NCBI RefSeq assembly: GCF_003173775.1
Contig: NZ_CP029552.1
Coordinates: 4,281,001-4,345,000, forward strand
DNA: 64,000 bases
Source: Methylobacterium sp. 17Sr1-1
GTDB lineage: Bacteria > Pseudomonadota > Alphaproteobacteria > Rhizobiales > Beijerinckiaceae
Direction: 5' to 3'
The stretch's first letter is position 1, and every line of letters begins with the position of its first letter. Below, piece after piece: positions 25,035 through 55,068 of the stretch. Below the pieces are notes generated by a model. That model made no database searches. It was not told the DNA's origin and worked only from the letters and a program-made list of their open reading frames with translations. The position numbers were made by a program, and so were the translations under genes.

Positions 25035-26558
25035 TCAGACGCTCGCCCGCTCCGCCGCCTCCAGGACCGCGGGCGGAATGGCGGGAACCTGATCCGCCTG
25101 CACGCCCCGCCCGAGCGCATCCCCCACCATCACGATCGCCGGCCCCTCGAGCCCGGCCGCCTCGACCCGGTCGGCGATGTCGCGGGCCTCACCGCGCACC
25201 ACCGCCTGGTCGGGCCGGGTGGCGTTGAACACCACCAGCGCCGGAGTCGCGGGCGGCAGGCCCTCGGAGACGGCCTGGGCGAGGAGGCTGCGCAGGGTGC
25301 GCTTGGGCATGTAGACCACCGTGGTCACGGTGGGATCGGCCAGCGCCTTCCAGTTCAGGTCGTCGGGAAGCGCCCCGCGGCGGTCGTGACCGGTGACGTA
25401 TTGCAGGCGCCGTGCCGCGTCGCGGTGGGTGAGCGAGATGCCGAGGGAGGCCGCCGCCCCCTGCGCCGCCGTGACGCCGGGCACCACCGCGACCGGGATG
25501 CCGGCCTCGTGGCAGGCGTCGATCTCCTCGCCGGCGCGGCCGAACACCAGGGGGTCGCCGGATTTGAGCCGCACCACCCGCTTGCCGCTCTTCGCCAGCG
25601 ACACCATCAGAGCGTTGATGTCGTCCTGGCGGCAGGACGGGCCGTGGCCGGTCTTGCCGACCAGCATCGTGCGGGCCTCGCGCCGGGCGTAGTCGAGGAT
25701 CTCCGGCGCGACGAGGTCGTCGTACAGGATCACGTCGGCGCTGCGCAGGGCCCGCAGGGCCTTGAGGGTCAGGAGCTCGGCGTCGCCCGGCCCCGCCCCG
25801 ACCAGGACGACGCTGCCGCCCGTCGGCGCGGCGTCGTTCTCGGCCAGCAGCGCGTCGAGGTCGGCGCGGACCGGCGCCCGCTCCGGCTCGGCGAAGGCAC
25901 GGTCCGTGAAACGCTCCCAGAACGCCCGGCGCTCGCCGAAGGCGTGGTAGCGCGCGCTCACCTCGGCGCGCCAGTCGCGGGCGGCCCCGACCCAGGCCTT
26001 GAAGCCCGCGGGCAGCATCGCCTCGATGCGCGCCCGCACGGTCTGGCCGAAGACCGGCGCGGCGCCCTCCGTCGAGATGCCGACGACGAGGGGCGAGCGG
26101 TTGACGATGGCGCCGAACGAGACGTCGCAGAGATGCGGCCGGTCGATGGCGTTGACGATCGCGCCCGCGGCGCGCGCCGCGCCGACGAAGCACTCGCACT
26201 CGCCCTCGTCCTCGAAGGCCGCGATGGCGAAGGCCGCGCCCTCGAGATCGGCCGGCGACCAGTCGCGCTCGTGCAGCACGACCGTGCCGGCGACGGCCTC
26301 CGCGGGAGCGCCCCGCATCTCCTCGGTGGGTTCGGGGGCGAAGACGTCGACATGGGCGCCGGCGGCGGCGAGCAGCTTCACCTTCCAGGCCGCGCCGCCA
26401 TTCGCCCCGGCCAGCACCGCGCGCTTGCCCGTGAGCGTCACGAAGACCGGGAGCACGGCCAGGGGCTCGAGACCCGGGGAGCGGGTCTCGCGGGGAGCGC
26501 GGGGCGTACGCATGGGAAGGGAAGCTTCTGGAACGAGTCTCGGGAAATCCTGCGCCAT
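25035..26558 (-). CDS. cysG: Siroheme synthase (trifunctional CysG)
   Basis: 507 aa from ATG 26558; a downstream ATG at 26513 is possible, since the first 30 residues are not family-like. The N-terminal precorrin-2 dehydrogenase/ferrochelatase part starts LPVFVTLTGKRAVLAGANGG, with an NAD-binding loop near 43-60 and VNAIDRPHLCDVSFGAIVNR. The C-terminal uroporphyrinogen III methyltransferase (from about 245) has VVLVGAGPGDAELLTLKALR, VRLKSGDPLVFGRAGEEI and VVPGVTAAQGAAASLGISLTHRD. It makes the siroheme required by NirA. It is the last gene of the nitrate operon, 9 nt after nasA. Confidence 0.96.
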   Translation of the reverse strand: MAQDFPRLVPEASLPMRTPRAPRETRSPGLEPLAVLPVFVTLTGKRAVLAGANGGAAWKVKLLAAAGAHVDVFAPEPTEEMRGAPAEAVAGTVVLHERDWSPADLEGAAFAIAAFEDEGECECFVGAARAAGAIVNAIDRPHLCDVSFGAIVNRSPLVVGISTEGAAPVFGQTVRARIEAMLPAGFKAWVGAARDWRAEVSARYHAFGERRAFWERFTDRAFAEPERAPVRADLDALLAENDAAPTGGSVVLVGAGPGDAELLTLKALRALRSADVILYDDLVAPEILDYARREARTMLVGKTGHGPSCRQDDINALMVSLAKSGKRVVRLKSGDPLVFGRAGEEIDACHEAGIPVAVVPGVTAAQGAAASLGISLTHRDAARRLQYVTGHDRRGALPDDLNWKALADPTVTTVVYMPKRTLRSLLAQAVSEGLPPATPALVVFNATRPDQAVVRGEARDIADRVEAAGLEGPAIVMVGDALGRGVQADQVPAIPPAVLEAAERASV

Positions 26559-26567
26559 CAGATGCGC

Positions 26568-29249
26568 CTATGCGGAAGCGGGTGCAAGTTCCGCGGCCAG
26601 CAGCTTGCGGATCTCAGGGATGCACGAGCCGCAATTGGTGCCGGCCTTGCACGCCGCGCCGACCGCCTCAACCCCGTGCGCCCCGCCCTTGATCGCCGCC
26701 CGGATCGTATCGAGCCCGACGGTGTGGCAGGCGCAGACCAGCGGCCCGGTGCCGGCGCTCTCGGCCCTGCCGGAGATGAGCGCCCGGCGGGCGGAGGGCT
26801 CCAGCAGCTCCTGGGTGCGGAAGAACGCCTTGGCGGCGTCCCAGGTCGGGCGCTCGGCGGCGGGCGCCAGGGCGATCACGCCGAGGAGCTGCCCGTCGCG
26901 GAAGGCGGCGGCGCGGTAGCGGCCGCGCCCCGGGTCGGCGTACTCGCTGAAGGCAGCCCCGGGAAACAGCTCGCGCATCAGGGCGGCGGCCTCGCTCGGA
27001 CCGTCCTGGGTCGCGACGATCAGGCCGGTCGCCCCTTCCAGCGTCGCCCTCGCCCACCACCAGCCGAAGGGCGCCGCCACCGTCTCGCGGGTGATGAGGT
27101 AGCCGCGGGAGCGGTAGGGCTCGGGGGCGATCGAGGCCGGGGTCGCCTTGAGCTCCGGCTGGCCCGAGACCGGGTCCACCGCGCCCTGCGCGAGGGCGCC
27201 GACGCGGCCGTCCGAGGTGTTGGCCTCGCTCCAGTGCATCGGGGCGAACAGGACGCCGGGTTGCGCGCCCGGGGTCACCATGACCTCCAGTACCGCGGCG
27301 CCATGGGCGGTGCGGACCCGGGCGAGGTCGCCCTCGGTGAGGCCGGCGGCGGCCGCGTCGTCGGGGTGGATCTCGACGAAGGGTACCGCCCGGTGGGCCG
27401 AGAGGCGCGGGCTCTTCCCGGTGCGGGTCAGCGTGTGCCAGTGGTCGCGCACCCGGCCGGTATTGAGGCGTAAGGGGAGCGCGTCGCTGGTCGCTTGCGC
27501 CAGGACCGGCTTCTGCACCGCGACGAAGCGGGCCTTGCGGTCGCGGGTGAAGAAGCCGCCATTGGCGAAGAACCGCGTCTGCGGCGCCTTGGCCTTACGG
27601 GTCAGCGGCCACTGCACCGGCGCCGCCGCGGCGTAGGCGGCGTCCGTGATGTCGGAGAGCCCACCGAGGTCGAAGTCGCGGCTGCCGCGGTTCTCGAACT
27701 CCGACAGGGCGGCGTGCTCGCGAAACACCGCGGCGGCACTCGGCCAGGCGAAGGCCTTGGAATAGCCGAGGCGTTGGCCCACCTGGGCCATGATCCACCA
27801 ATCGGCCCGCGCCTCGCCCGGGGCTGTCAGGAAGGCGCGCTGGCGCGAGATCCGGCGCTCGGAATTGGTCACCGTGCCGTCCTTCTCGCCCCAGGCGAGG
27901 GCCGGGAGCACGATGGCGTTGCGGGCCCGCACCGTGTCGGTGTCGGCCACCACCTCGGAGACCACGTAGGTGTCGAGCTTGGCCAAGGCCGCCCGCACCC
28001 GGTCGGCCCGGGGCATCGAGACCGCCGGGTTGGTGCCCATCACCCACAACGCCTTGATCTTGCCGCGCTCGATCGCCTCGAACAACGCCACCGCCTTCAT
28101 CCCCTCGCCGGTGGTGATGTTCGGCGCGTTCCAGAACCGGCGCACCAGGTCCACCTCCTCGGGGGTGAAGTGCATGTGGGCCGCCAGCATGTTGGCGAGC
28201 CCGCCGACCTCGCGCCCGCCCATGGCGTTGGGCTGGCCGGTGAGCGAGAACGGCCCCATGCCGGGCTTCCCGATGCGGCCGGTGGCGAGGTGGCAGTTGA
28301 TGATCGCGTTGGCCTTGTCGGTCCCTTGCGCCGACTGATTCACCCCCTGCGAGGTGGCGGTGACGACCCGCGGCGTGGTGCGGAATAGCTCGAAGAAGGT
28401 CGCGACCTCGGCCTCGGAGAGGCCGGTCGCCGCGGCCGTGGCCGCGGTCGTCGGGGCGATCTGGCGGGCGCGCTCCAGCGCCGGCTCGAAGCCGGCGGTG
28501 TGCTCGGCGATGTAGCGCGGATCGAGGGCGTTCGCGTCGGCGAGGTGGACCAGCAGCCCGGAGAACAGGGCCGTGTCGGTGCCGGGCTTCACGCCGAGGA
28601 AGAGGTCGGCCTCCTCGCCGGTCTGGGTGCGGCGGGGATCGATCGCCACGATTCTGGTGCCGCGCTTCGCCCGCGCGTCGAGCATGCGGCGAAAGAGGAT
28701 CGGGTGGCACCAGGCGGTGTTGGAGCCGACCAGCACCAGGAGGTCGGCCTCGTCGAGGTCCTCGTAGCAGCCCGGCACGGTGTCGGAGCCGAAGGCGCGG
28801 CGGTGCGCGGCCACCGAGGACGACATGCACAGGCGCGAATTGGTGTCGACGTGGGGCGTGCCGATGAAGCCCTTCGCGAGCTTGTTGGCGACGTAATAGT
28901 CTTCGGTCAGGAGCTGGCCCGAGAGGTAGAACGCCACCGAGTCCGGCCCGTGCGCCGCGACGGTGCGCTTGAAGCCCTCGGCGACGGCATCCAGTGCCTC
29001 GTCCCAGGTCGCGCGCCGCCCGGCGATTGCCGGATGCAGCACCCGGTCGTCGAGGGACAGGGTTTCACCCAACGCCGAGCCCTTCGAGCACAGCCGGCCG
29101 AAATTCGCCGGGTGCTGCGGATCGCCCGCCACGCTGGCGCCCCCCTGCCCGTCCGGCCGGGCGAGCACGCCGCAGCCGACGCCGCAATACGGACAGGTGG
29201 TGCGGACGGGGGCGGCCTCGGGCGCGAGGGCCGGCACGTGCAGGTTCAT
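26568..29249 (-). CDS. nasA: Assimilatory nitrate reductase catalytic subunit, with C-terminal [2Fe-2S] BFD domain
   Basis: 893 aa from ATG 29249; the ORF start at 29294 has no ribosome site. N-terminal [4Fe-4S] motif C-P-Y-C-G-V-G-C-G-V (about 19-28) with the fourth Cys in RLCSKGSALGE. Molybdopterin oxidoreductase domain follows, with TNSRLCMSSSVAAHRRAFGSD, where the molybdenum region lies, and the dinucleotide-binding domain RLNTGRVRDHWHTLTRTGKS. The C-terminal about 60 residues, CACHTVGLDTIRAAI ... CKAGTNCGSCIPEI, are a BFD-like [2Fe-2S] domain. It reduces nitrate to nitrite in the cytoplasm. There is no signal peptide. A family D repeat lies in the 349-bp gap to the upstream reductase gene. 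Confidence 0.95.
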   Translation of the reverse strand: MNLHVPALAPEAAPVRTTCPYCGVGCGVLARPDGQGGASVAGDPQHPANFGRLCSKGSALGETLSLDDRVLHPAIAGRRATWDEALDAVAEGFKRTVAAHGPDSVAFYLSGQLLTEDYYVANKLAKGFIGTPHVDTNSRLCMSSSVAAHRRAFGSDTVPGCYEDLDEADLLVLVGSNTAWCHPILFRRMLDARAKRGTRIVAIDPRRTQTGEEADLFLGVKPGTDTALFSGLLVHLADANALDPRYIAEHTAGFEPALERARQIAPTTAATAAATGLSEAEVATFFELFRTTPRVVTATSQGVNQSAQGTDKANAIINCHLATGRIGKPGMGPFSLTGQPNAMGGREVGGLANMLAAHMHFTPEEVDLVRRFWNAPNITTGEGMKAVALFEAIERGKIKALWVMGTNPAVSMPRADRVRAALAKLDTYVVSEVVADTDTVRARNAIVLPALAWGEKDGTVTNSERRISRQRAFLTAPGEARADWWIMAQVGQRLGYSKAFAWPSAAAVFREHAALSEFENRGSRDFDLGGLSDITDAAYAAAAPVQWPLTRKAKAPQTRFFANGGFFTRDRKARFVAVQKPVLAQATSDALPLRLNTGRVRDHWHTLTRTGKSPRLSAHRAVPFVEIHPDDAAAAGLTEGDLARVRTAHGAAVLEVMVTPGAQPGVLFAPMHWSEANTSDGRVGALAQGAVDPVSGQPELKATPASIAPEPYRSRGYLITRETVAAPFGWWWARATLEGATGLIVATQDGPSEAAALMRELFPGAAFSEYADPGRGRYRAAAFRDGQLLGVIALAPAAERPTWDAAKAFFRTQELLEPSARRALISGRAESAGTGPLVCACHTVGLDTIRAAIKGGAHGVEAVGAACKAGTNCGSCIPEIRKLLAAELAPASA

Positions 29250-29400
29250 GGGAAGAGCCTTTCGCCGGGCGTGCGGGTGGGGGCGGACAAGCAATGTTCG
29301 AGCCGCCGGGAGTCGACGGTGGATCGCAATTCACCCGAAACAATCAATCAGGGTGACGCTGACGAGCGCTTGCACGCGATCGGCGTGCTCGACGGAATGA

Positions 29401-29598: not shown

Positions 29599-31209
29599 TT
29601 AATACACGTCCGCCTGGTACCGGTTCGCCTTCTTGAGTGCGGCGAGATACGCCACCGCCTCCTCCGGGCTCTTGCCGCCGTGGGTCGCCGCCACGTCGAT
29701 GATCGCGCGCTCGACATCCTTGGCCATGCGCTTGGCGTCGCCGCAGACGTAGAAATGGGCGCCCTCCTCCAGCCAGCGCCACAATTCGCGGCCGTTCTCG
29801 CGCATCCGGTCCTGGACGTAGGTCTTCTCGCCCCCGTCGCGCGACCAGGCGAGCGACAGGCGGGTCAGCACGCCCTGGTCCTTCAAGCCGTTGAGCTCGT
29901 CACGGTAGAAGAAGTCGGAGGCCTGGCGCTGGTGGCCGAAGAACAGCCAGTTCTTGCCCGGCGCCTTCACGGCGGCGCGCTCGCGCAGGAAGGCGCGGAA
30001 CGGGGCGATGCCGGTGCCCGGGCCGACCATGATGACCGGGGTGTCCTGCTTGTCCGGCAGGCCGAAGCCGTGGGCCTTCTGGAGATACACCTTCACCTTG
30101 GCGGTCTCGGACAGGCGCTCGCCGAGATGGGTCGAGGCGACGCCGAGGCGCAGGCGCGAGCGGTGGCTGTAGCGCACCGCATCGACCGTGAGCGAGACCC
30201 GGCCCGGATCGGCCTTGGGCGAGGACGAGATCGAGTAGAGCCGCGGTTGCAGCTCGTCGAGGGCTTCGAGGAAGACCTCGGCGTCGGGCCGGGCACCCGG
30301 GAATTTATGGAGCGCGCCGAGCACGTCGAGATAGGCCGCGTCGCCGTCCGGATCCTCGCCGGCGCTGAGCGCCTGGGCCTTCTTGCGCTGCGCGCCGGAG
30401 GTGAGGAGCGAGAGGAGCTGGAACAGCCCGTCGGGGGCGCCGCCGAGGGAGTAGTTGGTGAGGAGATGGTCGCGCAGGGTCTTCTCGCCGAGCTTGGTGG
30501 CGATGACCCGCTCGGGCCGGGCGCCGAGCTCGGCGATCACCGCGTCGGCCAGGGCCGGGGCGTTGGCGGGGAACAGGCCGAGCGAATCGCCGACGACGTA
30601 GTCGATGCCGGTGCCGGTCAGATCGATCTCGATGTGCCAGGTCTCCTTCTCGCCGCCCGGCGCGTTGAGGCGGCGGCGGGAGAGGAAGACCGCCTCGGCC
30701 GGGTTCTCGCGGCAGAGGCCGTAGGGACCGACCGGAGCTTCCGCCTTCGGAGCGTCGTCGGAGGCGGGCGCGGCGCCGGCCGGGGCCGCGGTGCCGAACT
30801 CCGCCTCCAGCTTCTTCAGCATCCGGAGCGTCTCCTTGCCGCCGGGCTGGCAGAGGTTCAGGCGCTCCTCCTTCTTGAGGAAGATGGCGTTGGCATAGTC
30901 GGCGCAGTTGTAGCCGCATTGGCCGCAATCCTGCTGGGCCATGGCGGCCATCAGCTTCTGCGGCTCGGAGCGGTCCTTGGCCAGGGTCATGCGGTCGTCG
31001 AGGCCCATCGACGGGTCGTGCCAGGGCGCATCGCCGTTGTCGGCGAGAGCCGGACCGCCGGGCGCCTCGCCGGCCCCGAGGGCGGTTGCGCCCTCGACCG
31101 CCGGCCCGAGCAGGGCGGCGAAGTAGCCCGACAGCCAGGCGCGCTGGTCGGTGTTGAAGGGGGCGGATTCGGGGATCAGGACGAGCGGGGGAGCGACGTG
31201 CTGGGTCAT
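29599..31209 (-). CDS. NADPH-dependent FAD reductase with N-terminal Fe-S domain (sulfite reductase alpha-like)
   Basis: 536 aa. The C-terminal two thirds match the FAD/NADPH module of CysJ: RLYSISSSP (about 308-316), the FAD-phosphate loop GVASTHLGERL, GPGTGIAPFRAFLRER, FGHQRQASDFFYRDEL and the terminal YQADVY. The N-terminal flavodoxin (FMN) domain of CysJ is absent. In its place is a [4Fe-4S]-type motif, C95-x2-C98-x3-C102-x17-C120 (DCGQCGYNC). Electrons would thus go NADPH-FAD-FeS rather than through FMN. Lying between nirA and nasA, it is best read as the electron donor for one or both of them. The stop is at 29599. A family B repeat lies between it and nirA. Confidence 0.85.
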   Translation of the reverse strand: MTQHVAPPLVLIPESAPFNTDQRAWLSGYFAALLGPAVEGATALGAGEAPGGPALADNGDAPWHDPSMGLDDRMTLAKDRSEPQKLMAAMAQQDCGQCGYNCADYANAIFLKKEERLNLCQPGGKETLRMLKKLEAEFGTAAPAGAAPASDDAPKAEAPVGPYGLCRENPAEAVFLSRRRLNAPGGEKETWHIEIDLTGTGIDYVVGDSLGLFPANAPALADAVIAELGARPERVIATKLGEKTLRDHLLTNYSLGGAPDGLFQLLSLLTSGAQRKKAQALSAGEDPDGDAAYLDVLGALHKFPGARPDAEVFLEALDELQPRLYSISSSPKADPGRVSLTVDAVRYSHRSRLRLGVASTHLGERLSETAKVKVYLQKAHGFGLPDKQDTPVIMVGPGTGIAPFRAFLRERAAVKAPGKNWLFFGHQRQASDFFYRDELNGLKDQGVLTRLSLAWSRDGGEKTYVQDRMRENGRELWRWLEEGAHFYVCGDAKRMAKDVERAIIDVAATHGGKSPEEAVAYLAALKKANRYQADVY

Positions 31210-31462: not shown

Positions 31463-33250
31463 TTACTCGGCCGCCTCCAGCAGCCGTTCGCCGGCGAGCG
31501 CCTTCAGCGCCTCCGGCCCGCGGCGGGCGGTGTAGGCCTGGAAGGTCTCCTCCGGGCCGGTGCGGTGCTGGAGATAGTCGGTGAGCAGGGTCTCGACCCG
31601 GCCGGGGCAGTCCTCGGCCTTCACGGCCTTCCAGATCTCGGTGCCGATCTTGGCCGCCTCGCCGAAGCCGCCGCCGACCACGATGTCGTAGCCCTCGACG
31701 GTGTCGCCCTCCTCACTCACCACCACCTTGGCGCCGATGAGCCCGATATCGCCGATGTAGTGCTGGGCGCAGGAATGGTGGCAGCCGGTGAGGTGGACGT
31801 TGACCGGCACGTCGAGCCCCGGCACAGCCGCCTCGACGTGGTCGGCGATGAGCAGCGCATGGCCCTTGGTGTCCGAGGCCGCGAACTTGCAGCCGCGATT
31901 GCCGGTGCAGGCGACGAGGCCGGCGCGGATGCTCGACGCCTTGGTGGAGAGCCCGAGGGCCGCGACGCGGGTCTCGACCTCCGCCACCTTGTCGTCGGGC
32001 ACACCCGAGAACAGGAAGTTCTGCCAGACGGTGAGACGGATCTGGCCGTCGCCGCACTCGCGGGAGATCTCCGCCAGCGCCCGCATCTGGTCGGTGGTCA
32101 TCTTGCCGACCGGCAGGATCACGCCGATCCAGTTGAGGCCGGACTGGACCTGGGCATGCACGCCGACATGGGCGTAGCGGTCGAAGCCGCCGCGGGGCTT
32201 CACGTGGGCGGGATCGACCCGCTCCAGCTTGCGCCCGAGCTTCTCTTCCACGGCGGCGAGGTACTTGTCGTAGCCCCAGGCGTCGAGGACGTACTTCATC
32301 CGCGCCTTGTTGCGGTTGGTGCGGTCGCCGTTCTCGATGAAGACCCGCAGGATCGCGTCGGCGACGGCGTTGCACTCCTTCGGGCGCAGCACCACGCCGG
32401 TGTCGCGGGCGATGTCGCGGTGGCCGGTGATGCCGCCCAGCACGAGGCGCATCCAGATCCCCGGCTCGACCGCGGCGCCCTCCATCACCTCGACCGCCTG
32501 AAAGCCGATGTCGTTGGTCTCCTCCAGCACCGGCAGCACGCCGCCACCGTCGAAGGCGACGTTGAACTTGCGCGGCAGGCCGAAGAGCGAGCGGTCGTTG
32601 AGGATGTGGTTGTGCCAGGACTTGGCGAGCGGCCGCGTGTCGAGGAGTTCCTGCGCGTCGATGCCGGCAGTGGGCGAGCCGGTGACGTTGCGGATGTTGT
32701 CGGCGCCGGCGCCCCGGGCGGTGAGGCCGAGATCGATCAGCCCGTCGAGGAAGGGCTGACCGTGCTCGGGAGCGATCTCGCGCACCTGGAGGTTGGCGCG
32801 CGTCGTGACGTGGCTGTAGCCGCCGCCATGGGCGTCGGCGAGGTCGGCGATGCCGGCGAACTGCCAATGGTGCAGGATGCCGTTCGGGATCCGCAGGCGG
32901 CACATGTAGGAGTTCTGGGCCGGCGCGACCCAGAACAGCCCGTGATAGCGCCAGCGGAAATTGTCCTCCGGCTTCGGCGCCTTGCCGGTCTCGGCCTCGG
33001 CGATCAGCCGGTTGTGGCCGTCGAACGGGTTCTCGGCCCGCTTCCACTTCTCCTGCTCGGCGAGCTTGCCGCCGTTCTTCACGGTGCGGTCCTGCGCCTT
33101 GATGTGGATCGCGTCCGGCCCGGTCGGCTCGGCGGCGGGCGCCGCGGCACCGCCTCCGGCAGCGAGGCCGCCGGTCATGCGGATTGCGGCGATGCCGTGG
33201 GAGAAGCCTTCGAGGTAGCGCTTCTGCTCGGCGTTGAAGTCGTCGGCCAT
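31463..33250 (-). CDS. nirA: Siroheme nitrite reductase (NirA-type nitrite/sulfite reductase)
   Basis: 595 aa from ATG 33250 with AAGGAG upstream. Two ferredoxin-like half domains and two siroheme-binding halves: HVTTRANLQVREI (about 151-163), NIRNVTGSPTAGID, and the cluster motifs C-T-G-N-R-G-C-K-F (about 442-450) and T-G-C-H-H-S-C-A-Q-H (about 482-491). These hold the [4Fe-4S]-siroheme. The C-terminal 50 residues, around CPGRVETLLTDYLQHRTGPE, form a short extra domain. It reduces nitrite to ammonium by six electrons. It is of the one-polypeptide NirA class rather than NirBD; the electron donor is probably one of the two flavoproteins encoded beside it. Confidence 0.93.
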   Translation of the reverse strand: MADDFNAEQKRYLEGFSHGIAAIRMTGGLAAGGGAAAPAAEPTGPDAIHIKAQDRTVKNGGKLAEQEKWKRAENPFDGHNRLIAEAETGKAPKPEDNFRWRYHGLFWVAPAQNSYMCRLRIPNGILHHWQFAGIADLADAHGGGYSHVTTRANLQVREIAPEHGQPFLDGLIDLGLTARGAGADNIRNVTGSPTAGIDAQELLDTRPLAKSWHNHILNDRSLFGLPRKFNVAFDGGGVLPVLEETNDIGFQAVEVMEGAAVEPGIWMRLVLGGITGHRDIARDTGVVLRPKECNAVADAILRVFIENGDRTNRNKARMKYVLDAWGYDKYLAAVEEKLGRKLERVDPAHVKPRGGFDRYAHVGVHAQVQSGLNWIGVILPVGKMTTDQMRALAEISRECGDGQIRLTVWQNFLFSGVPDDKVAEVETRVAALGLSTKASSIRAGLVACTGNRGCKFAASDTKGHALLIADHVEAAVPGLDVPVNVHLTGCHHSCAQHYIGDIGLIGAKVVVSEEGDTVEGYDIVVGGGFGEAAKIGTEIWKAVKAEDCPGRVETLLTDYLQHRTGPEETFQAYTARRGPEALKALAGERLLEAAE

Positions 33251-33261
33251 CGCGGGCTCCT

Positions 33262-34479
33262 TCACGCTGCGAGGGACTGAGGGGCGGGACGCCCGAACAT
33301 CAGGTCGTCCCGGTCGTCGGAACTGATCGCGTCACCGGTGCGGATCAGGGTCTTGCACCAGCCCTGCTCGGCGACGTCGCCGACGAAGACCGCGCCGATC
33401 AGGCGGTCGCCGTCGATCACGAGCTTGCGGTAGAGGCCGGAGGCCGGGTCGCTCCAGGTCACGGCCTCGGCGCCGTCCGGCACGTCGACCGCGCCGGCGG
33501 AGAAAACCGGCAGGCCCGACACCTTGAGGCTCGTGGCGAGCGAGGTGCCGGCGTAAGCGGCCTCTCCTCCGCAGAGGCGGCGGGCGAGCACCTCGGCCTG
33601 CTCGTAGGCCGGCTCGACGAGGCCGTAGGTCTGGCCGCGGTGCTCGGCGCATTCGCCGAGCGCGTAGATCCCCGGCACCGAGGTCGCCATCGTGTCGTCC
33701 ACCCGGATGCCGCGGCCGATATCGAGCCCAGCGCTCGCCGCCAGGGCCGTCGAGGGCCGCACGCCGACCGACATCACCACGAGATCGGCCGGCAGCACCG
33801 TGCCGTCCGACAGGACAAGGCGCTCGACCTTGCCGTCGCCCTCGACCGCGGCGGTGTCGGCCTTCAGGATCACCCGCACGCCGCGGGCCTCCATCGCCTC
33901 GCGCACCAGCCCCGCGGCGGCATGGTCGAGCTGGCGCTCCATCAGGCGGTCCATGACGTGCAGCAGCGTGGTGTCGACGCCGAGCCGCGCCAGCCCCACC
34001 GCGGCCTCGAGCCCGAGGAGCCCGCCGCCGATCACGATCGCCCTGGCGCCCGCCACCGCCGCCCGGCGGATCGCCGCCACGTCGGCGAGGTCGCGGAAGG
34101 TGATGACGCCGGGCAGATCCATCCCGGGCTTCGGCAGCCGGATCGGCACCGAGCCGACGGCGAGGACCAGCTTGTCGAAGGGCAGGACCAGCCCCTCGCC
34201 GACCCGCACGATGCGCTCCGCGGTGTCGATCGCGGTGGCGGGCGCGCCGGTGACGAGGGTGATGCCGTGCTCGGCATACCAGTCGAGGCCGCGGAAGGTG
34301 CAGGCCGCCTCGTCGACCTCGCCGCCGAGCAGCGACGACAGCAGCACGCGGTTGTACGCCGCCACCGGCTCGGCGCCGACGCAGGTGACGTCGAAGCGGC
34401 CGGGGGCGGCCTCGGTCAGCCGCTCCAGGAAGCGGAGCGAGGCCATGCCGTTGCCGATGACGACGAGACGCTCGGTCAT
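33262..34479 (-). CDS. NAD(P)H/FAD oxidoreductase resembling the N-terminal part of NirB
   Basis: 405 aa, ATG at 34479. Two Rossmann motifs: RLVVIGNGMASLRFLERL (FAD, residues 4-21) and AIVIGGGLLGLEAAVGL (NAD(P)H, about 145-161). AYNRVLLSSLLGGE and VRPSTALAASAGLDIGRGIRVDDTMATS are typical of NirB, nitrite reductase large subunit, and rubredoxin reductase relatives. It stops after the FAD domains and lacks the BFD and siroheme parts of NirB. In this operon it is likely a dedicated NAD(P)H dehydrogenase feeding NirA or NasA. Gaps are 4 nt to nrtD and 11 nt to nirA, so it is firmly in the operon. Confidence 0.88.
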   Translation of the reverse strand: MTERLVVIGNGMASLRFLERLTEAAPGRFDVTCVGAEPVAAYNRVLLSSLLGGEVDEAACTFRGLDWYAEHGITLVTGAPATAIDTAERIVRVGEGLVLPFDKLVLAVGSVPIRLPKPGMDLPGVITFRDLADVAAIRRAAVAGARAIVIGGGLLGLEAAVGLARLGVDTTLLHVMDRLMERQLDHAAAGLVREAMEARGVRVILKADTAAVEGDGKVERLVLSDGTVLPADLVVMSVGVRPSTALAASAGLDIGRGIRVDDTMATSVPGIYALGECAEHRGQTYGLVEPAYEQAEVLARRLCGGEAAYAGTSLATSLKVSGLPVFSAGAVDVPDGAEAVTWSDPASGLYRKLVIDGDRLIGAVFVGDVAEQGWCKTLIRTGDAISSDDRDDLMFGRPAPQSLAA

Positions 34480-34483
34480 GGGA

Positions 34484-35293
<810 letters not shown>

Positions 35294-35306: not shown

Positions 35307-36167
35307 TCAGGCCGTGGCGGTGCCGCGGGTGACGAGGTGGCCGAGGCCGGCGACGAGGCGGTCGAGCACGAAGCCGATCACCCCGACATAGACCAGGGCC
35401 ACGATGATCTCGCTGATGTGCGAGGAGTTCCAGGCATCCCAGATGAAGAACCCGATGCCGACACCGCCGATCAGCATCTCCGCCGCCACGATGGCGAGCC
35501 AGGACAGGCCGACGCCGATGCGGAGACCGGTGAAGATGTACGGCGCCGCCGAGGGCAGCATCACCTTGGCGAAGAACTCGAAGGCGTTGAGGCGCAGGAC
35601 CGCCGCGACGTTGCGGTAGTCCTGCGGAATGTTGCGGATGCCGACCGCGGTGTTGATGATGATCGGCCAGATCGAGGTGATGAAGATCACGAAGATCGCC
35701 GAGGGCTGGCCGTCCCGGAAGGCGGCGAGCGACAGCGGCAGCCAGGCGAGCGGCGGGATGGTGCGCAGGACCTGGAAGATCGGATCGAGCCCGCGCATCG
35801 CCCATTCGGACTGACCGACGAGGGTGCCGAGCATCACGCCGGCGATCACCGCCAGGGTGAAGCCGAGCGCCACGCGCTGGAGGCTGGCGCTGATGTGCCA
35901 GAACAGCCCCTTGTCGGTGCCGCCATTGTCGTAGAACGGGTGGGCGATGATCTCCCAGGCCTCGCTGACGACGCGCGACGGCGGCGGCAGGCCGGCGCCG
36001 GGGCGCTGGCACAGCACCTCCCAGAGCAGCAGGAAGACCGCCAGCACGACCAGCGGCGGCACGATCCGCAGCGCCAGACCTTTCAGGGCGGCGCGGGTGA
36101 CGAGGGGGCGCTTCACCCCTTCGGCTTTGGCGGCGCCGAGGCGCCCGAGGCTGAGTCCGAGCGCCAT
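35307..36167 (-). CDS. nrtB: Nitrate ABC transporter permease
   Basis: 286 aa, six transmembrane segments, first at about 33-52 (RIVPPLVVLAVFLLLWEVLC). The EAA loop is EFFAKVMLPSAAPYIFTGLRIGVG (about 203-226, quoted to 20 residues: EFFAKVMLPSAAPYIFTGLR). IFVIFITSIWPIIINTAVGI and VAAEMLIGGVGIGFFIWDAW are typical of the NrtB/SsuC group. Start one base after the nrtA stop region and 13 nt before nrtD. Confidence 0.93.
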   Translation of the reverse strand: MALGLSLGRLGAAKAEGVKRPLVTRAALKGLALRIVPPLVVLAVFLLLWEVLCQRPGAGLPPPSRVVSEAWEIIAHPFYDNGGTDKGLFWHISASLQRVALGFTLAVIAGVMLGTLVGQSEWAMRGLDPIFQVLRTIPPLAWLPLSLAAFRDGQPSAIFVIFITSIWPIIINTAVGIRNIPQDYRNVAAVLRLNAFEFFAKVMLPSAAPYIFTGLRIGVGLSWLAIVAAEMLIGGVGIGFFIWDAWNSSHISEIIVALVYVGVIGFVLDRLVAGLGHLVTRGTATA

Positions 36168-36168
36168 C

Positions 36169-37455
36169 TCACGCCACCTTCTTGATGCCGAGGCTGTTGA
36201 GGTAGGCGGAGGGGTCCGCCGGATCGAAGACCTTGCCGTCGAAGAAGGTCTCCTTGCCGCGCGAGGTCGAGGCGGGGGCGGTGACGCCCATGCCCTTCGC
36301 CACCTCGCGCCAGATGTCCTCCCGGTTCACCTTCTCGATCAGCGCCTTGGTGTCGGTCTGGGGATCGAACTTGCCCCAGCGGATGTCCTCGGTGAGGAAC
36401 CACAGGTCATGCGACTTGAACGGGTACGAGGCGTCGTCGGCCCAGTACTTCATGATGTGCGGGCTGTTCGACACCTTGCGGCCGTCGCCGTAATCGAACT
36501 CGCCCTTCATCCGTCTGACGACGTCGGTGGCCGGGACGTTGATCCACTGGCGCTTGGCGACGATGCCGGCGAGCTCGTCGCGGTTCTCCGGCTTGTCGCA
36601 CCATTGTTGCGCCTCCATCACGGCGGCGAGCAGCGCCTTGGCGGCGTTCGGGTACTTGTCGACCCAGGCGGCGCGCATGCCCAGCGCCTTCTCCGGGTGG
36701 TCCTTCCACAATTCGCCGGTGGTGAGCGCCGTGTAGCCGATGCCCTGCGTGATCAGCTGCTCGTTCCACGGCTCGCAGACGCAGAAGCAATCCATCGTGC
36801 CGACCTTCATGTTCGCTACCATCTGGGGCGGAGGCACGACGATGGTCTCGATGTCCTTGTCCGGATCGATGCCTCCGGCGGCGAGCCAGTAGCGGATCCA
36901 GAGGTCGTGGGTACCGCCCGGGAAGGTCATCGCCGCCTTGACCGACTTGCCCGACGCCTTCTTGCGCTCGAGCGCGGCCCGGAAGGGCTTGGCGTCGAGG
37001 GCGACCTTGTCGCCCATATGCTCCTTGGCGACCGAGATGCACTGCCCGGCGAGGTTGAGCCGCGCCAGGATGTACATCGGCACCGGAACGTTGTTCTGCG
37101 TCACCCGGCCGGCGCTGATCAGGTAGGGCATCGGGGTCAGGATGTGGGCGCCGTCGATGCCGTTGCCCTCCGAGCCGAGCACCAGATTGTCGCGGGTGGT
37201 GCCCCAGGAAGCCTGCTTCAGCACCTCGACGTCGGGCATCCCGTGCTTGGCGAAGATGCCCTTCTCCTTGGCGACGAAGAGGGGGGCGGCGTCGGTGAGC
37301 GCGATGAAGCCGAGCTTGGCGCCCTTCACCTCGGGGCCCGCACCTTGCGCGAAGGCGCCGCCCGGCAGGGCGACACGGCTCGCTGCCGCCAGGGACAGGG
37401 CGCCGGCCGCCCCCTTGAGGATGCCGCGACGCGTGGTGTGCTCAACGCTGCTCAT
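36169..37455 (-). CDS. nrtA: Nitrate-binding protein of the ABC importer, Tat-exported
   Basis: 428 aa. The N-terminus carries a twin-arginine signal (T-T-R-R-G-I-L-K-G, residues 7-15, then a hydrophobic stretch to about 36). The mature part matches NrtA/NasF-type binding proteins: GFIALTDAAPLFVAKEKGIF, then DGAHILTPMPYLISAG, NLAGQCISVA, FPGGTHDLWIRYWLAAGGID and GTMDCFCVCEPWNEQLI. Start chosen at ATG 37455; the ORF begins 6 codons earlier at 37473. It is the first gene after the sigma-54 promoter and ANTAR-like leader, and captures nitrate/nitrite in the periplasm for NrtBD. Confidence 0.94.
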   Translation of the reverse strand: MSSVEHTTRRGILKGAAGALSLAAASRVALPGGAFAQGAGPEVKGAKLGFIALTDAAPLFVAKEKGIFAKHGMPDVEVLKQASWGTTRDNLVLGSEGNGIDGAHILTPMPYLISAGRVTQNNVPVPMYILARLNLAGQCISVAKEHMGDKVALDAKPFRAALERKKASGKSVKAAMTFPGGTHDLWIRYWLAAGGIDPDKDIETIVVPPPQMVANMKVGTMDCFCVCEPWNEQLITQGIGYTALTTGELWKDHPEKALGMRAAWVDKYPNAAKALLAAVMEAQQWCDKPENRDELAGIVAKRQWINVPATDVVRRMKGEFDYGDGRKVSNSPHIMKYWADDASYPFKSHDLWFLTEDIRWGKFDPQTDTKALIEKVNREDIWREVAKGMGVTAPASTSRGKETFFDGKVFDPADPSAYLNSLGIKKVA

Positions 37456-37515: not shown

Positions 37516-37622
37516 AAAAAACCGCTGCCCAAGGTCTTCCGCCGGCCGCGCGGTTGCGGGCCCACAGGGGAACTCGGGTCAGCGGCTCTGCTGACGGTCG
37601 GTGCCCGTCGACGCTGACGGAC
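37516..37622 (-). promoter_or_regulatory. Candidate ANTAR (NasT/NasR-type) antitermination leader with intrinsic terminator
   Basis: Read on the minus strand. Hairpin P1 is CCGTC-AGCGTC-GACGG (37620-37605), extended by two outer pairs. After an 8-nt linker, hairpin P2 is GTCAGC-AGAGCC-GCTGAC (37595-37578). Both have six-base loops with A at position 1 and G at position 4, the known ANTAR recognition rule. The 3' arm of P2 is also the 5' arm of a terminator: CCGCTG(A)CCC (37585-37576) pairs with GGGCAGCGG (37530-37522) followed by TTTTTT (37521-37516). P2 and the terminator cannot form together, so binding of an ANTAR protein should allow read-through into nrtA, whose start is 60 nt further. 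No ANTAR gene is in the window. Confidence 0.82.
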
Positions 37623-37633
37623 GAGAGAGGGAG

Positions 37634-37649
37634 AGCAGGTTCCGTGCCA
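37634..37649 (-). promoter_or_regulatory. Sigma-54 (-24/-12) promoter of the nitrate operon
   Basis: TGGCACG-GAAC-CTGCT on the minus strand matches the RpoN consensus TGGCACG-N4-TTGCW except for one base, with GG and GC correctly spaced. Transcription would start near 37624, which is two bases before the first leader hairpin. This agrees with NtrC-type nitrogen control of nitrate assimilation and gives a leader of about 170 nt. Confidence 0.78.
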
Positions 37650-37962: not shown

Positions 37963-38616
37963 TCAGAACTCCATGTCGAGTTCCTCGATCTCCTCCGGCT
38001 CGTCCGCCGCCGCGCCGATCCAGTCGCGCATCAGATCCCAATCCATGATCCGGTCGCGGTAGGCGGCGCAATCCGGCGGCAGGTCGACGCCGTAGGTGAC
38101 GAAGCGGGTGCAGACCGGGGCGTAGATCGCGTCCGCCACCACCGGCCGGGCGCCGAAGAGGAACGGCCCCCCGTGGGCCCGGAGCGCCTCCTGCCAGATC
38201 TCGACCACCCGGGCGATGTCGGCGCGGGCGCCGCCCCAGAGCTTGAAGTCGTCGTAGCGGGCGCGCAGGTTCATCGGCAGGGCCGAGCGCAGGTTGACGA
38301 AGCCGCCATGCATCTCGCCCGAGATCGAATGCGACCAGGCCCGGGCGGCGAGGTCGTCGGGCAGGAGGCCGGCTTGCGGCCGCACCTCGGCGAGGTACTG
38401 GGCGATGGCGAGCACATCCCAGACCCGCACCGACCCGTGGGTCAGCCGCGGCACCAGGAACGAGGGCGAGAGGTGCAGGAGTTCGGCCCGGCTCGCCGGA
38501 TCGCCCGACAGCACTTCCACCGCAAGGTCGAGCCCCGCCATGCGGCAGAGCAGCCAGCCGCGCAGCGACCAGGACGAGTAGTTGCGGCTTGAGATCGTCA
38601 GCGTCGCCTCGGCCAT
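37963..38616 (-). CDS. Glutathione S-transferase
   Basis: 217 aa. N-terminal thioredoxin-like domain starts ATLTISSRNYSSWSLRGWLL (Ser in S-S-W-S-L is the likely catalytic position, as in bacterial GSTs of this type). SPSFLVPRLTHGSVRVWDVLAIAQYL holds the cis-Pro and the glutathione-binding acidic/Ser segment (WDVLAI replaces the usual E-S). The helical C-domain follows from about residue 90. Cytosolic; substrate unknown. It is transcribed away from phaZ. Confidence 0.9.
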   Translation of the reverse strand: MAEATLTISSRNYSSWSLRGWLLCRMAGLDLAVEVLSGDPASRAELLHLSPSFLVPRLTHGSVRVWDVLAIAQYLAEVRPQAGLLPDDLAARAWSHSISGEMHGGFVNLRSALPMNLRARYDDFKLWGGARADIARVVEIWQEALRAHGGPFLFGARPVVADAIYAPVCTRFVTYGVDLPPDCAAYRDRIMDWDLMRDWIGAAADEPEEIEELDMEF

Positions 38617-38930
38617 GCGGTCCTCCCCGGGCCGTCATCGCGCGGCCCGTCTGCCCCTGGGTTCCCGGCCTCGCGATCCAAGACTCGTGCCGAAAGACCC
38701 GTGCCGAAAGACTCGTGCCGGTCGGACTCCACGCCGGGACGCAATCTTCGCACAAGTCGCGCGGACCTAGACTGCATGGGACAGGAACTTGGCACGAGGG
38801 TCGCATCCCGCGAGCGCAGGGGATGGCTGCCGTCTTCCGCCGAAAGTCCGGTCGCGGGCGGGGGAAGCCGTGCCGTACGCTTGCCGGCGGGCCGAATCCC
38901 GCGCGTGTCCGTGAGGGAGTGCCCGGGCCG
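38617..38930. other. 314-bp gap between GST and phaZ, with a 14-bp tandem repeat
   Basis: At 38681-38722 the unit AGACTCGTGCCGAA occurs almost three times (second unit has one change, third ends GG). The gap must contain the divergent promoters of the GST and phaZ genes, but I cannot point to convincing -35/-10 boxes. The tandem units are the only clear structure and could be a regulator-binding array or slipped-strand expansion. No gene is seen. Confidence 0.6.
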
Positions 38931-40160
38931 ATGCTGTACGATGCCTTCGAGGTCCAGTCGGACGCCGCCGCCGCGACGCGCGCCTGGGGACGGGTGCTCC
39001 ACGAGGGCACGGCTCCCTGGACGACGAGAGGCTACGGCGCGCCGGCGACCTGGGTCGCGGCCGCCGCCCGGATGATGATGCGGGCCGGCCTCACCCATGC
39101 CCGGCCCTCCTACGGGATCGAGACGGTGCAAATCGGCAACCGCGAGGCCCCGGTCACCGAGGAGCCGGTGCTCTCGACGCCCTTCGGCACGCTGCTGCGC
39201 TTCCGCAAGGACCTGGTCAGCGAGCAGCCCCGGGTGCTGGTGGTGGCGCCCCTCTCGGGCCATTTCGGCACGCTCCTGCGCGGCACCGTGCGCACCCTGC
39301 TCGCCGACCACGACGTCTACATCACCGACTGGCACAATGCCCGCGACGTGCCGCTCAGCGCCGGCCGCTTCGGCTTCGACGACTACGTCGCCCACCTGGT
39401 GCAGTTCCTCGAGACGATCGGCGAGGGCGCCCACCTCGTGGCGGTGTGCCAGCCCTGCGTGCAGGCGCTGGCCGCCGCCGCGGTGATGGCCGAGAGCCGC
39501 AACGCGGCCCACCCGGCGAGCATGACCCTGATGGCCGGCCCGGTCGACACCCGGATCAACCCGACCAAGGTCAACGAGCTCGCCACCGCGAAGCCGATCG
39601 CGTGGTTCGAGAAGAATCTGATCGCCACCGTGCCGCGCCGCCATGCCGGAGCCGGGCGGCGGGTCTATCCGGGCTTCATGCAGGTGGGGGCCTTCATGTC
39701 GATGAACGCCGCGCGCCACATGCACGGCCATCTCGACCTCTACTGGCACCTCGCCGAGGGCGAGACCAACAGGGACGCCCAAGCGAAGGCGGCGCAGATC
39801 GAGACCTTCTACGACGAGTATTTCGCCGTCCTCGACCTCGCGGCGGAGTTCTACCTCGAGACGGTCAAGACCGTGTTCCAGGACGCGACGCTGGCGCAGA
39901 ACAAGCTGACCTTCCGCGGAGCGCCGATCGACACGCGGGCGATCCGCAGGACCGCCCTGATGACGGTGGAGGGGGAGCGCGATGACATCTGCGCCGTCGG
40001 CCAGACGGTGGCGGCGCACGACCTCTGCACCGGCCTCAAGCCCTTCCGCAAGAGCCACCACCTCCAGGCCGGGGTCGGCCATTACGGGGTGTTCTCCGGC
40101 CGCAAGTGGGAGGGCCAGACCTACCCGCGGGTGCGCAGCTTCATCCAGGCCAACGCTTGA
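38931..40160 (+). CDS. phaZ: Intracellular poly(3-hydroxybutyrate) depolymerase
   Basis: 409 aa from ATG 38931 (MLYDAFEVQSDAAAATRAWG), which matches iPhaZ starts; the much longer ORF to 38589 is spurious. Instead of a serine lipase box it has V172-C173-Q-P-C, the cysteine nucleophile motif of intracellular PHB depolymerases (C183 in Cupriavidus PhaZ1). The acidic residue lies in VEGERDDICAVGQT and the His in GVGHYGVFSGRKW near the C-terminus. There is no signal peptide. It mobilises stored PHB granules in the cytoplasm, fitting a PHB-accumulating alphaproteobacterium. Confidence 0.93.
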   Translation: MLYDAFEVQSDAAAATRAWGRVLHEGTAPWTTRGYGAPATWVAAAARMMMRAGLTHARPSYGIETVQIGNREAPVTEEPVLSTPFGTLLRFRKDLVSEQPRVLVVAPLSGHFGTLLRGTVRTLLADHDVYITDWHNARDVPLSAGRFGFDDYVAHLVQFLETIGEGAHLVAVCQPCVQALAAAAVMAESRNAAHPASMTLMAGPVDTRINPTKVNELATAKPIAWFEKNLIATVPRRHAGAGRRVYPGFMQVGAFMSMNAARHMHGHLDLYWHLAEGETNRDAQAKAAQIETFYDEYFAVLDLAAEFYLETVKTVFQDATLAQNKLTFRGAPIDTRAIRRTALMTVEGERDDICAVGQTVAAHDLCTGLKPFRKSHHLQAGVGHYGVFSGRKWEGQTYPRVRSFIQANA

Positions 40161-54428: not shown

Positions 54429-54513
54429 GCCCAGGTGGCGGAATTGGTAGACGCGCTGGTTTCAGGTACCAGTGGTGCAAGCCGTGGAGGTTCGAGTCCT
54501 CTCCTGGGCACCA
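54429..54513 (+). tRNA. tRNA-Leu, anticodon CAG, copy 1
   Basis: 85 nt including encoded CCA. Acceptor stem GCCCAGG / CCTGGGC, anticodon loop TTCAGGT between CTGGT and ACCAG gives CAG, and a long class II variable arm is present. T-loop segment GGTTCGAGTCC. It reads CUG, the dominant Leu codon in this GC-rich genome. Lies 96 bp after leuC. Confidence 0.97.
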
Positions 54514-54983: not shown

Positions 54984-55068
54984 GCCCAGGTGGCGGAATT
55001 GGTAGACGCGCTGGTTTCAGGTACCAGTGGTGCAAGCCGTGGAGGTTCGAGTCCTCTCCTGGGCACCA
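54984..55068 (+). tRNA. tRNA-Leu, anticodon CAG, copy 2
   Basis: Identical in all 85 nt to copy 1, including encoded CCA, 555 bp downstream. About 35 bp of upstream and 20 bp of downstream flank are also similar. The downstream flank forms CAACACC-CTCAAGC-GGTGTTG, a possible terminator or processing hairpin. Confidence 0.97.

Follow-up and report, generated by a model that had tools for sequence, protein, structure and literature searches.

A predicted NasT-type antitermination leader behind a sigma-54 promoter upstream of the nitrate assimilation operon of Methylobacterium sp. 17Sr1-1

Analysis of a 64,000-nt stretch of the genome of Methylobacterium sp. 17Sr1-1 (contig NZ_CP029552.1; hereafter the window, whose numbering is used throughout unless other coordinates are named) identified an RNA leader upstream of a nitrate assimilation operon, nrtABC-nir-nas-cysG. 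The leader carries two hairpins with matching hexaloops, the second of which overlaps an intrinsic terminator, and it is very probable that the operon is controlled by antitermination through NasT, a protein with an ANTAR domain.

Leader structure and conservation

The leader is located on the minus strand, from 37649 to 37516, and the order of its parts can be read directly from the sequence: a -24/-12 promoter box, a C/T-rich spacer, a first hairpin (P1), a 7-nt linker, a second hairpin (P2), approximately 50 nt, CAGCGG, and six T residues. P1 (37622-37603, GTCCGTC-AGCGTC-GACGGGC) forms 7 bp, including one G-U pair, and closes the hexaloop AGCGTC, with A at position 1 (A1) and G at position 4 (G4); the 5-bp stem given for P1 in a preliminary description of this DNA is the core of this stem. 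P2, the putative antiterminator (37595-37578, GTCAGC-AGAGCC-GCTGAC), forms 6 bp around the hexaloop AGAGCC, again with A1 and G4. The P2 loop and 3' arm (AGAGCCGCTG, 37589-37580) are predicted by folding to pair with CAGCGGTTTT in an intrinsic terminator (37593-37516), whose 3' arm, CAGCGG at 37527-37522, is followed by T6 at 37521-37516. The features of ANTAR-target leaders, namely two tandem hexaloop hairpins, A1 and G4 in both loops, and a terminator overlapping P2, are thus present, and the linker is inside their range of approximately 5-12 nt. The promoter box, the two A1/G4 hairpins and the U6 terminator overlapping the second hairpin had all been proposed in the preliminary description, and the sequence bore them out to the base.

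The full leader folded into P1 and a long terminator hairpin that uses the P2 loop and 3' arm (-60.4 kcal/mol; z -3.8, with 0 of 200 shuffles equally good), and an RNA ending after P2 folded into P1 and P2 in 94% of the ensemble. In the folding model the P1+P2 state and the terminator state are mutually exclusive, matching the published ANTAR model (PMC3369931, PMC3369936; these and the other publications are cited for the parts available to this study). Of the 33 A1/G4 hairpins of at least 5 bp in the window, only the two of the leader, with its overlapping terminator, form a closely spaced pair; in 60 sequences of 64 kb simulated to first order, such pairs averaged 0.15 per sequence and none had a terminator. 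A simple terminator scan did not match the leader terminator because its rule admits loops of 3-8 nt only and excludes long ones.

In order to examine conservation, genome contigs were scanned for NrtA and 80 loci were kept, the nearest being from Methylobacterium platani, variabile, terricola and others (96-98% identity). Alignment of the nrtA leaders of 58 of the loci L003-L062 with the window (L060, which had no clear P1, L061, which had no box of the pattern used, and L063-L082 were left out) revealed that A1 and G4 of both loops and both loop-closing pairs are invariant in 59 of 59 leaders and that the stems covary, so that the check proposed in the preliminary description, for loss of A1/G4 or of pairing in close relatives, came out in favour of an ANTAR target. 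Across the 13 stem pairs, 92.0% of cells were standard pairs, compared with at most 61.4% in slid controls. Cells changed on both sides numbered 18, compared with a shuffled mean of 6.2, and pairs changed on both sides numbered five (three of seven in P1, two of six in P2), compared with a shuffled mean of 3.3, a value reached in 39 of 500 shuffles.

A covariance model built from the leader family, of which the window is a part, scored the window site at E 8.8e-11 in its own genome, where the next site had E 0.096. When the model was run on 98 genomes of the genus, as the preliminary description had suggested for relatives, it matched 97, the miss being G074, which is 70% complete, and 110 strong sites were classed. 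A leader was scored as having a terminator if six bases pairing with the end of P2 were followed by at least 4 T in 8, a definition under which single cases could shift if another rule were used. The nrtA gene was found in 67 of the 98 genomes and was preceded by the hairpin leader in all 67; the P2 loop has A1 in every one of these, with a terminator in 52 and none in 15. The other 43 leaders precede a nirB-like gene, with G at position 1 of the P2 loop (G1) in 41 and A1 in two, and a terminator in 42. In the 54 genomes with an nrtA leader only, the terminator is present in 52, the exceptions being G065, in which the U run is interrupted, and G014. In the 13 genomes with both kinds of leader, the nrtA leader has no terminator in 13 of 13, and the sigma-54 box and both A1/G4 hairpins are kept (L133, L135, L137, L139, L141, L143, L145, L147, L149, L151, L153, L155 and L157). 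The remaining 30 genomes have a nirB-like leader only and lack nrtA at the threshold used, since the 67 genomes with nrtA are the same 54 and 13.

Promoter, regulator genes and proposed mechanism

The promoter box TGGCACGGAACCTGCT (37649-37634) is a predicted sigma-54 promoter element. Within it, TGGCACGGAACCTGC fits the pattern GG-N10-GC, and the base before TGC is C rather than the T of the sigma-54 consensus, TGGCAC-N5-TTGC. The invariance of the box in the nrtA leader alignment is partly by construction, as the rows were cut out via the promoter-box pattern. The independent count comes from the 110 sites selected genus-wide by the hairpin model alone, itself trained in large part on rows from these species: TGGCA[CT]-N6-TGC precedes the hairpins at 110 of 110. 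Genes for RpoN and NtrC were both found over cut-off in the window's genome. Transcription is predicted from the box to start at 37623, 12 bases beyond the GC of the -12 element and at the base of P1. Box and P1 loop are 34 nt apart in 85 of the 110 leaders and 33-38 nt apart throughout, which fits a start at P1. No sigma-70 promoters were found between 24500 and 37700, and a terminator scan of the same region, limited to short loops, returned three weak matches, compared with 4.3 in shuffles.

A candidate enhancer, TTTGTGCATCGCAC (37748-37735, minus strand), is located approximately 118 bp before the predicted start and was recognized by its conservation in relatives. Together with GCCC at 37756-37753 it reads GCCC-N7-GTGC, which we take to resemble an NtrC site. 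Its core, TTTGTGCANNGCA, is invariant in 13 of 13 rows, the window included. The form TGTGCANNGCA was counted in 36 of the 52 terminator-bearing nrtA leaders, 25 of the 43 nirB-like leaders and one of the 15 terminator-less nrtA leaders, compared with 0.02-0.04 expected per leader class from shuffles, and a looser form, TTTTGTGC, occurs in some of the terminator-less leaders. The element TTTGTGCANNGCAC, whose likeness to an NtrC site is again our assumption, lies at a near-fixed distance from the sigma-54 box and is common to nrtA and nirB-like leaders.

The preliminary description had placed the regulator outside the window, acting in trans, and had suggested a search for nasT, nasS or another ANTAR gene. 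The whole genome contains two ANTAR genes, nasT (74.8 bits, cut-off 27.3) and an AmiR-like gene (44.6 bits). The nasT gene (G000:C1:570879-571496) is overlapped by nasS and is located 3.7 Mb from the leader in contig coordinates. NasT has an ANTAR domain and a receiver-like domain that scores below cut-off (25.6 bits, cut-off 30.2); its stretch DVVVIHLE has a histidine at what is presumably the position of the phospho-aspartate. NasS matches the ligand-binding family NMT1_2 (E 2.6e-57), and nitrate sensing is predicted for it from sequence. By our count, 97 of the 98 genus genomes have a NasT homologue, including G058, in which it is cut by a contig end, and G017, in which it has an internal stop. 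The raw tally at E <= 0.001 was 98 of 98, and G014 was counted as lacking NasT because its only match, in a fragmented assembly, is to the receiver domain. A search of the window's own genome for other NasT targets returned nothing convincing, the second covariance hit being the site at E 0.096; weaker sites were not examined.

For the 15 genomes whose nasT is closest, comparison of hit lists by eye placed the gene 1.2-3.2 kb upstream of a leader on the same contig, the leader standing before nrtA in 14 and before the nirB-like gene in G062. It is the window's genome that departs from this pattern, with the regulator apart but the leader hexaloops kept. A PHB depolymerase-like gene (PHB_depo_C, 38589-40160) is divergent from the nas operon in the window, at the place where the closest relatives have nasTS.

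Under the proposed mechanism, RNA polymerase with sigma-54 would start transcription at P1 when nitrogen is limiting, its activator probably being NtrC bound to the upstream element. Without nitrate, NasS would hold NasT, P2 would be absorbed into the terminator, and transcription would stop at U6. In the presence of nitrate or nitrite, NasS would release NasT, whose ANTAR domains would bind the A1/G4 hexaloops of P1 and P2; with P2 held, the terminator could not form and the operon would be read. Parts for both levels of the dual control proposed in the preliminary description, nitrogen status at initiation and nitrate at elongation, were thus found, and the response to nitrate is a prediction from them.

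Several observations weigh against this interpretation. No Rfam family was found at the leader at gathering score, the matches in the window being two tRNAs only. Among the 58 distinct rows of the nrtA leader alignment, 17 break one inner P1 pair (mostly as C-A), 12 break one P2 pair, and 5 to 11 break outer pairs. Outside the genus (22 loci, L060-L082 without L062), a P2-like hairpin with a U run precedes nrtA in seven; those of Rhodopseudomonas among them show no clear P1, and Enterovirga (L071) has both hairpins without a box of the pattern used. The first gene of the operon, nrtA, scores below NCBIfam cut-offs. The genome also encodes the second ANTAR protein, AmiR-like and located behind an AmiC-like gene (L002, G000:C1:5694983-5698138), and the assignment of NasT as the partner of the leader consequently rests on neighbourhood and function. 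Finally, 15 of the 67 nrtA leaders in the genus have no terminator, which indicates that the hairpins can outlive it.

Variant leaders and alternative explanations

The leaders without a terminator were examined in an alignment (A3) of 12 of the 15. Pairwise identity was 0.86 in the promoter box, 0.90 in P1, 0.85 in P2 and 0.62 in the linker, compared with 0.47 in the spacer from the box to P1 and 0.49-0.55 downstream. P2 pairing is kept over 4 bp in 12 of 12, with one change from A-U to G-C on both sides. Since the identity and pairing of P1 and P2 are retained, the hairpins of these leaders appear to be kept for their own sake. The P1/P2 shuffle control was weak, with 36 of 500 shuffles reaching the observed values, and the hairpins of two of these leaders folded alone were of no special stability (z near 0). 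No runs of at least 4 T were found downstream of P2 in 11 of the 12; the twelfth, L018, has one T run, which does not stand behind an arm pairing with P2.

Minimum free energy folds of these leaders gave long GC hairpins, which may arise by chance in GC-rich DNA. An alternative stem, columns 51-58 with 144-151 of A3, is 94.4% paired, compared with at most 62.3% in slid controls; it is offered only as a lead, since the alignment on which the pairs were counted is also the one whose folding gave the stem. On the nrtA gene tree, which has poor resolution, four to five changes are needed for the terminator-less rows, so that a single loss of the terminator could not be demonstrated; on a nasT tree of 41 genomes the leader arrangement requires four changes. 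These leaders may serve as a trap for NasT, in mRNA protection or in Rho-dependent control, or may be slowly decaying relics.

Two individual loci may be mentioned here. In L012 (M. crusticola) the U run of the terminator is interrupted (CTCTCT) and P2 and its complement are kept, possibly an early stage of terminator loss. At G019:C1:4049706-4050979, nrtA was matched as two overlapping pieces in different frames and may be broken; its nrtA leader has no terminator.

The persistence of the hairpins without a terminator in these 15 leaders, and the position of P1 at the predicted 5' end, would be expected if the hairpins acted mainly as stabilizers of the mRNA 5' end or as a NasT trap, with antitermination secondary. 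This explanation is improbable, as the window and 52 of the 67 nrtA leaders keep a terminator overlapping P2, which stabilization would not need. A plain attenuator, terminator or riboswitch-like element working without an ANTAR protein, with incidental loop letters, would account for the very stable fold of the terminator alone, but it has slightly less in its favour still: none of the 59 leaders departs from A1 and G4 in either loop, whereas their stems and spacers do vary, P1 and P2 outlast the terminator with higher identity than their flanks, and nasTS adjoins the leader in the closest relatives. Binding of the leader by AmiR instead of NasT is equally improbable despite the AmiC/AmiR-like pair in the genome, given the nasTS genes beside the leader in the closest relatives, the presence of nasT in 97 of 98 genomes, and the role of the operon in nitrate assimilation.

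In the nirB-like leaders, P2 reads GTCAGC-GAGGCC-GCTGAT and the loop is GAGGC[C/T] in 41 of 43 (L134 and others), with G1 instead of A1. In the fold of one example G1 pairs with C6, producing a predicted 7-bp stem with the tetraloop AGGC. The terminator is kept in 40 of the 41 G1 leaders, which are thus predicted from the fold to run counter to the A1 expectation while their terminators remain. According to the structural study of EutV, A1 is not contacted specifically, and its retention may serve to keep the loop from pairing across (PMC8934654). The ANTAR domain of NasT hardly differs between the leader groups. Of the NasT residues, compared in 41 of the 98 genomes, only residue 201 tracks the loop base (A in 19 of 21, T in 19 of 20), and this may follow kinship. 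One might speculate, with considerable doubt, that in some members of the genus NasT acts on nrtABC independently of any intrinsic terminator, and that its recognition of nirB-like leaders, whose P2 would not be a canonical hexaloop, is relaxed or led by P1.

Operon and comparison with known systems

The operon comprises eight genes on the minus strand, from 37455, the ATG of nrtA, to 25035 (12.4 kb). The first (36169-37455) encodes an NrtA-like nitrate ABC transporter substrate-binding protein with similarity to SsuA_fam (E 2.9e-14) and no family above cut-off, and is named nrtA because it stands before nrtB (permease, 35307-36167; TIGR01183, E 4.5e-97) and nrtC (ATPase, 34484-35293; TIGR01184, E 1.6e-110), both of which are over cut-off. 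These are followed by a nirB-like FAD/NAD oxidoreductase gene (33262-34548; TIGR02374, E 4.5e-118, partial and below cut-off), the homologue of which directly follows the second kind of leader in relatives, and by genes for a nirA-family nitrite reductase (31463-33265; NF007126, 1044.6 bits), a sulfite-reductase-alpha-like flavoprotein (29599-31209; NF004859, 898 bits), a NasC/NasA-like molybdopterin nitrate reductase (26568-29294; NF047855, E 7.9e-123, and Fdh-alpha, E 5.7e-126, both below cut-offs) and the siroheme synthase CysG (25035-26558; NF007922, 519.6 bits). Gaps of approximately 250 and 300 bp precede the sixth and seventh genes. A single transcript across all eight genes is likely, and the leader is predicted to reach over the whole operon; the extent and gene number given in the preliminary description agree with these results. 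Elsewhere in the window, the two tRNA genes (54429-54510 and 54984-55065) have identical scores and lie approximately 470 bp apart, possibly as a result of duplication.

In conclusion, these analyses point to a likely regulator of nitrate assimilation throughout Methylobacterium and to a likely mechanism for it. The 110 leaders of 97 genomes fall into three natural classes, nrtA with a terminator, nrtA without one, and nirB-like leaders mostly with G1. What a specialist would not expect is the two variant classes in relatives, and these constitute natural tests of the ANTAR model: native leaders and one protein could reveal the purpose of A1 and whether hexaloops work without a terminator. No study of this Methylobacterium leader was found in searches of one open-licence library. 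Matches before nitrate transporters in diverse bacteria were reported earlier in PMC3369931, the available main text of which does not name Methylobacterium, and the window leader may already be listed in its supplements.

One close parallel is the NasS-NasT system of Paracoccus denitrificans and Azotobacter vinelandii, which shares the nasT-nasS pair, the nitrate operon and the leader hairpins before the first gene. In the Paracoccus system the NasS-NasT complex comes apart with nitrate, and the nasA leader is a binding target of NasT (PMC3795266); mutants in the hairpins of this leader have been made and examined alongside a nasT mutant (PMC5424462). The system of the window differs from those of Paracoccus and Azotobacter in that nasTS is 3.7 Mb away and the operon opens with ABC transporter genes. 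In Bradyrhizobium without NasT, according to the text available, the leader hairpin was clear for only two of the down-regulated genes, and expression rose for narK and bjgb, although they too bear hairpins (PMC6759348), so that a hairpin alone is no proof of activation.

Klebsiella NasR senses nitrate itself through a NIT domain, whereas the system of the window would sense it via the separate NasS. The nas operon of Klebsiella combines a sigma-54/NtrC promoter with ANTAR control, and dual control of this kind is therefore already known. Its nasF leader resembles the leader of the window in having two A1/G4 hexaloop hairpins, with P2 overlapping a terminator, before a nitrate operon (PMC3369936). 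The eut leaders bound by EutV of the EutV/EutW system of Enterococcus faecalis likewise form a dual-hexaloop antiterminator with A1 and G4, with natural linkers of 5-12 nt compared with 7 nt here (PMC3369931). EutV is activated by phosphorylation, whereas NasT, with its degenerate receiver, would become active on release from NasS. Actinobacterial ANTAR RNAs have dual hexaloops and only in few cases a terminator (PMC8164766), and in this they resemble the nrtA leaders of the 13 relatives that lack one, but in the present leaders a distance of approximately 90 nt or more separates the hairpins from the start codon used downstream.
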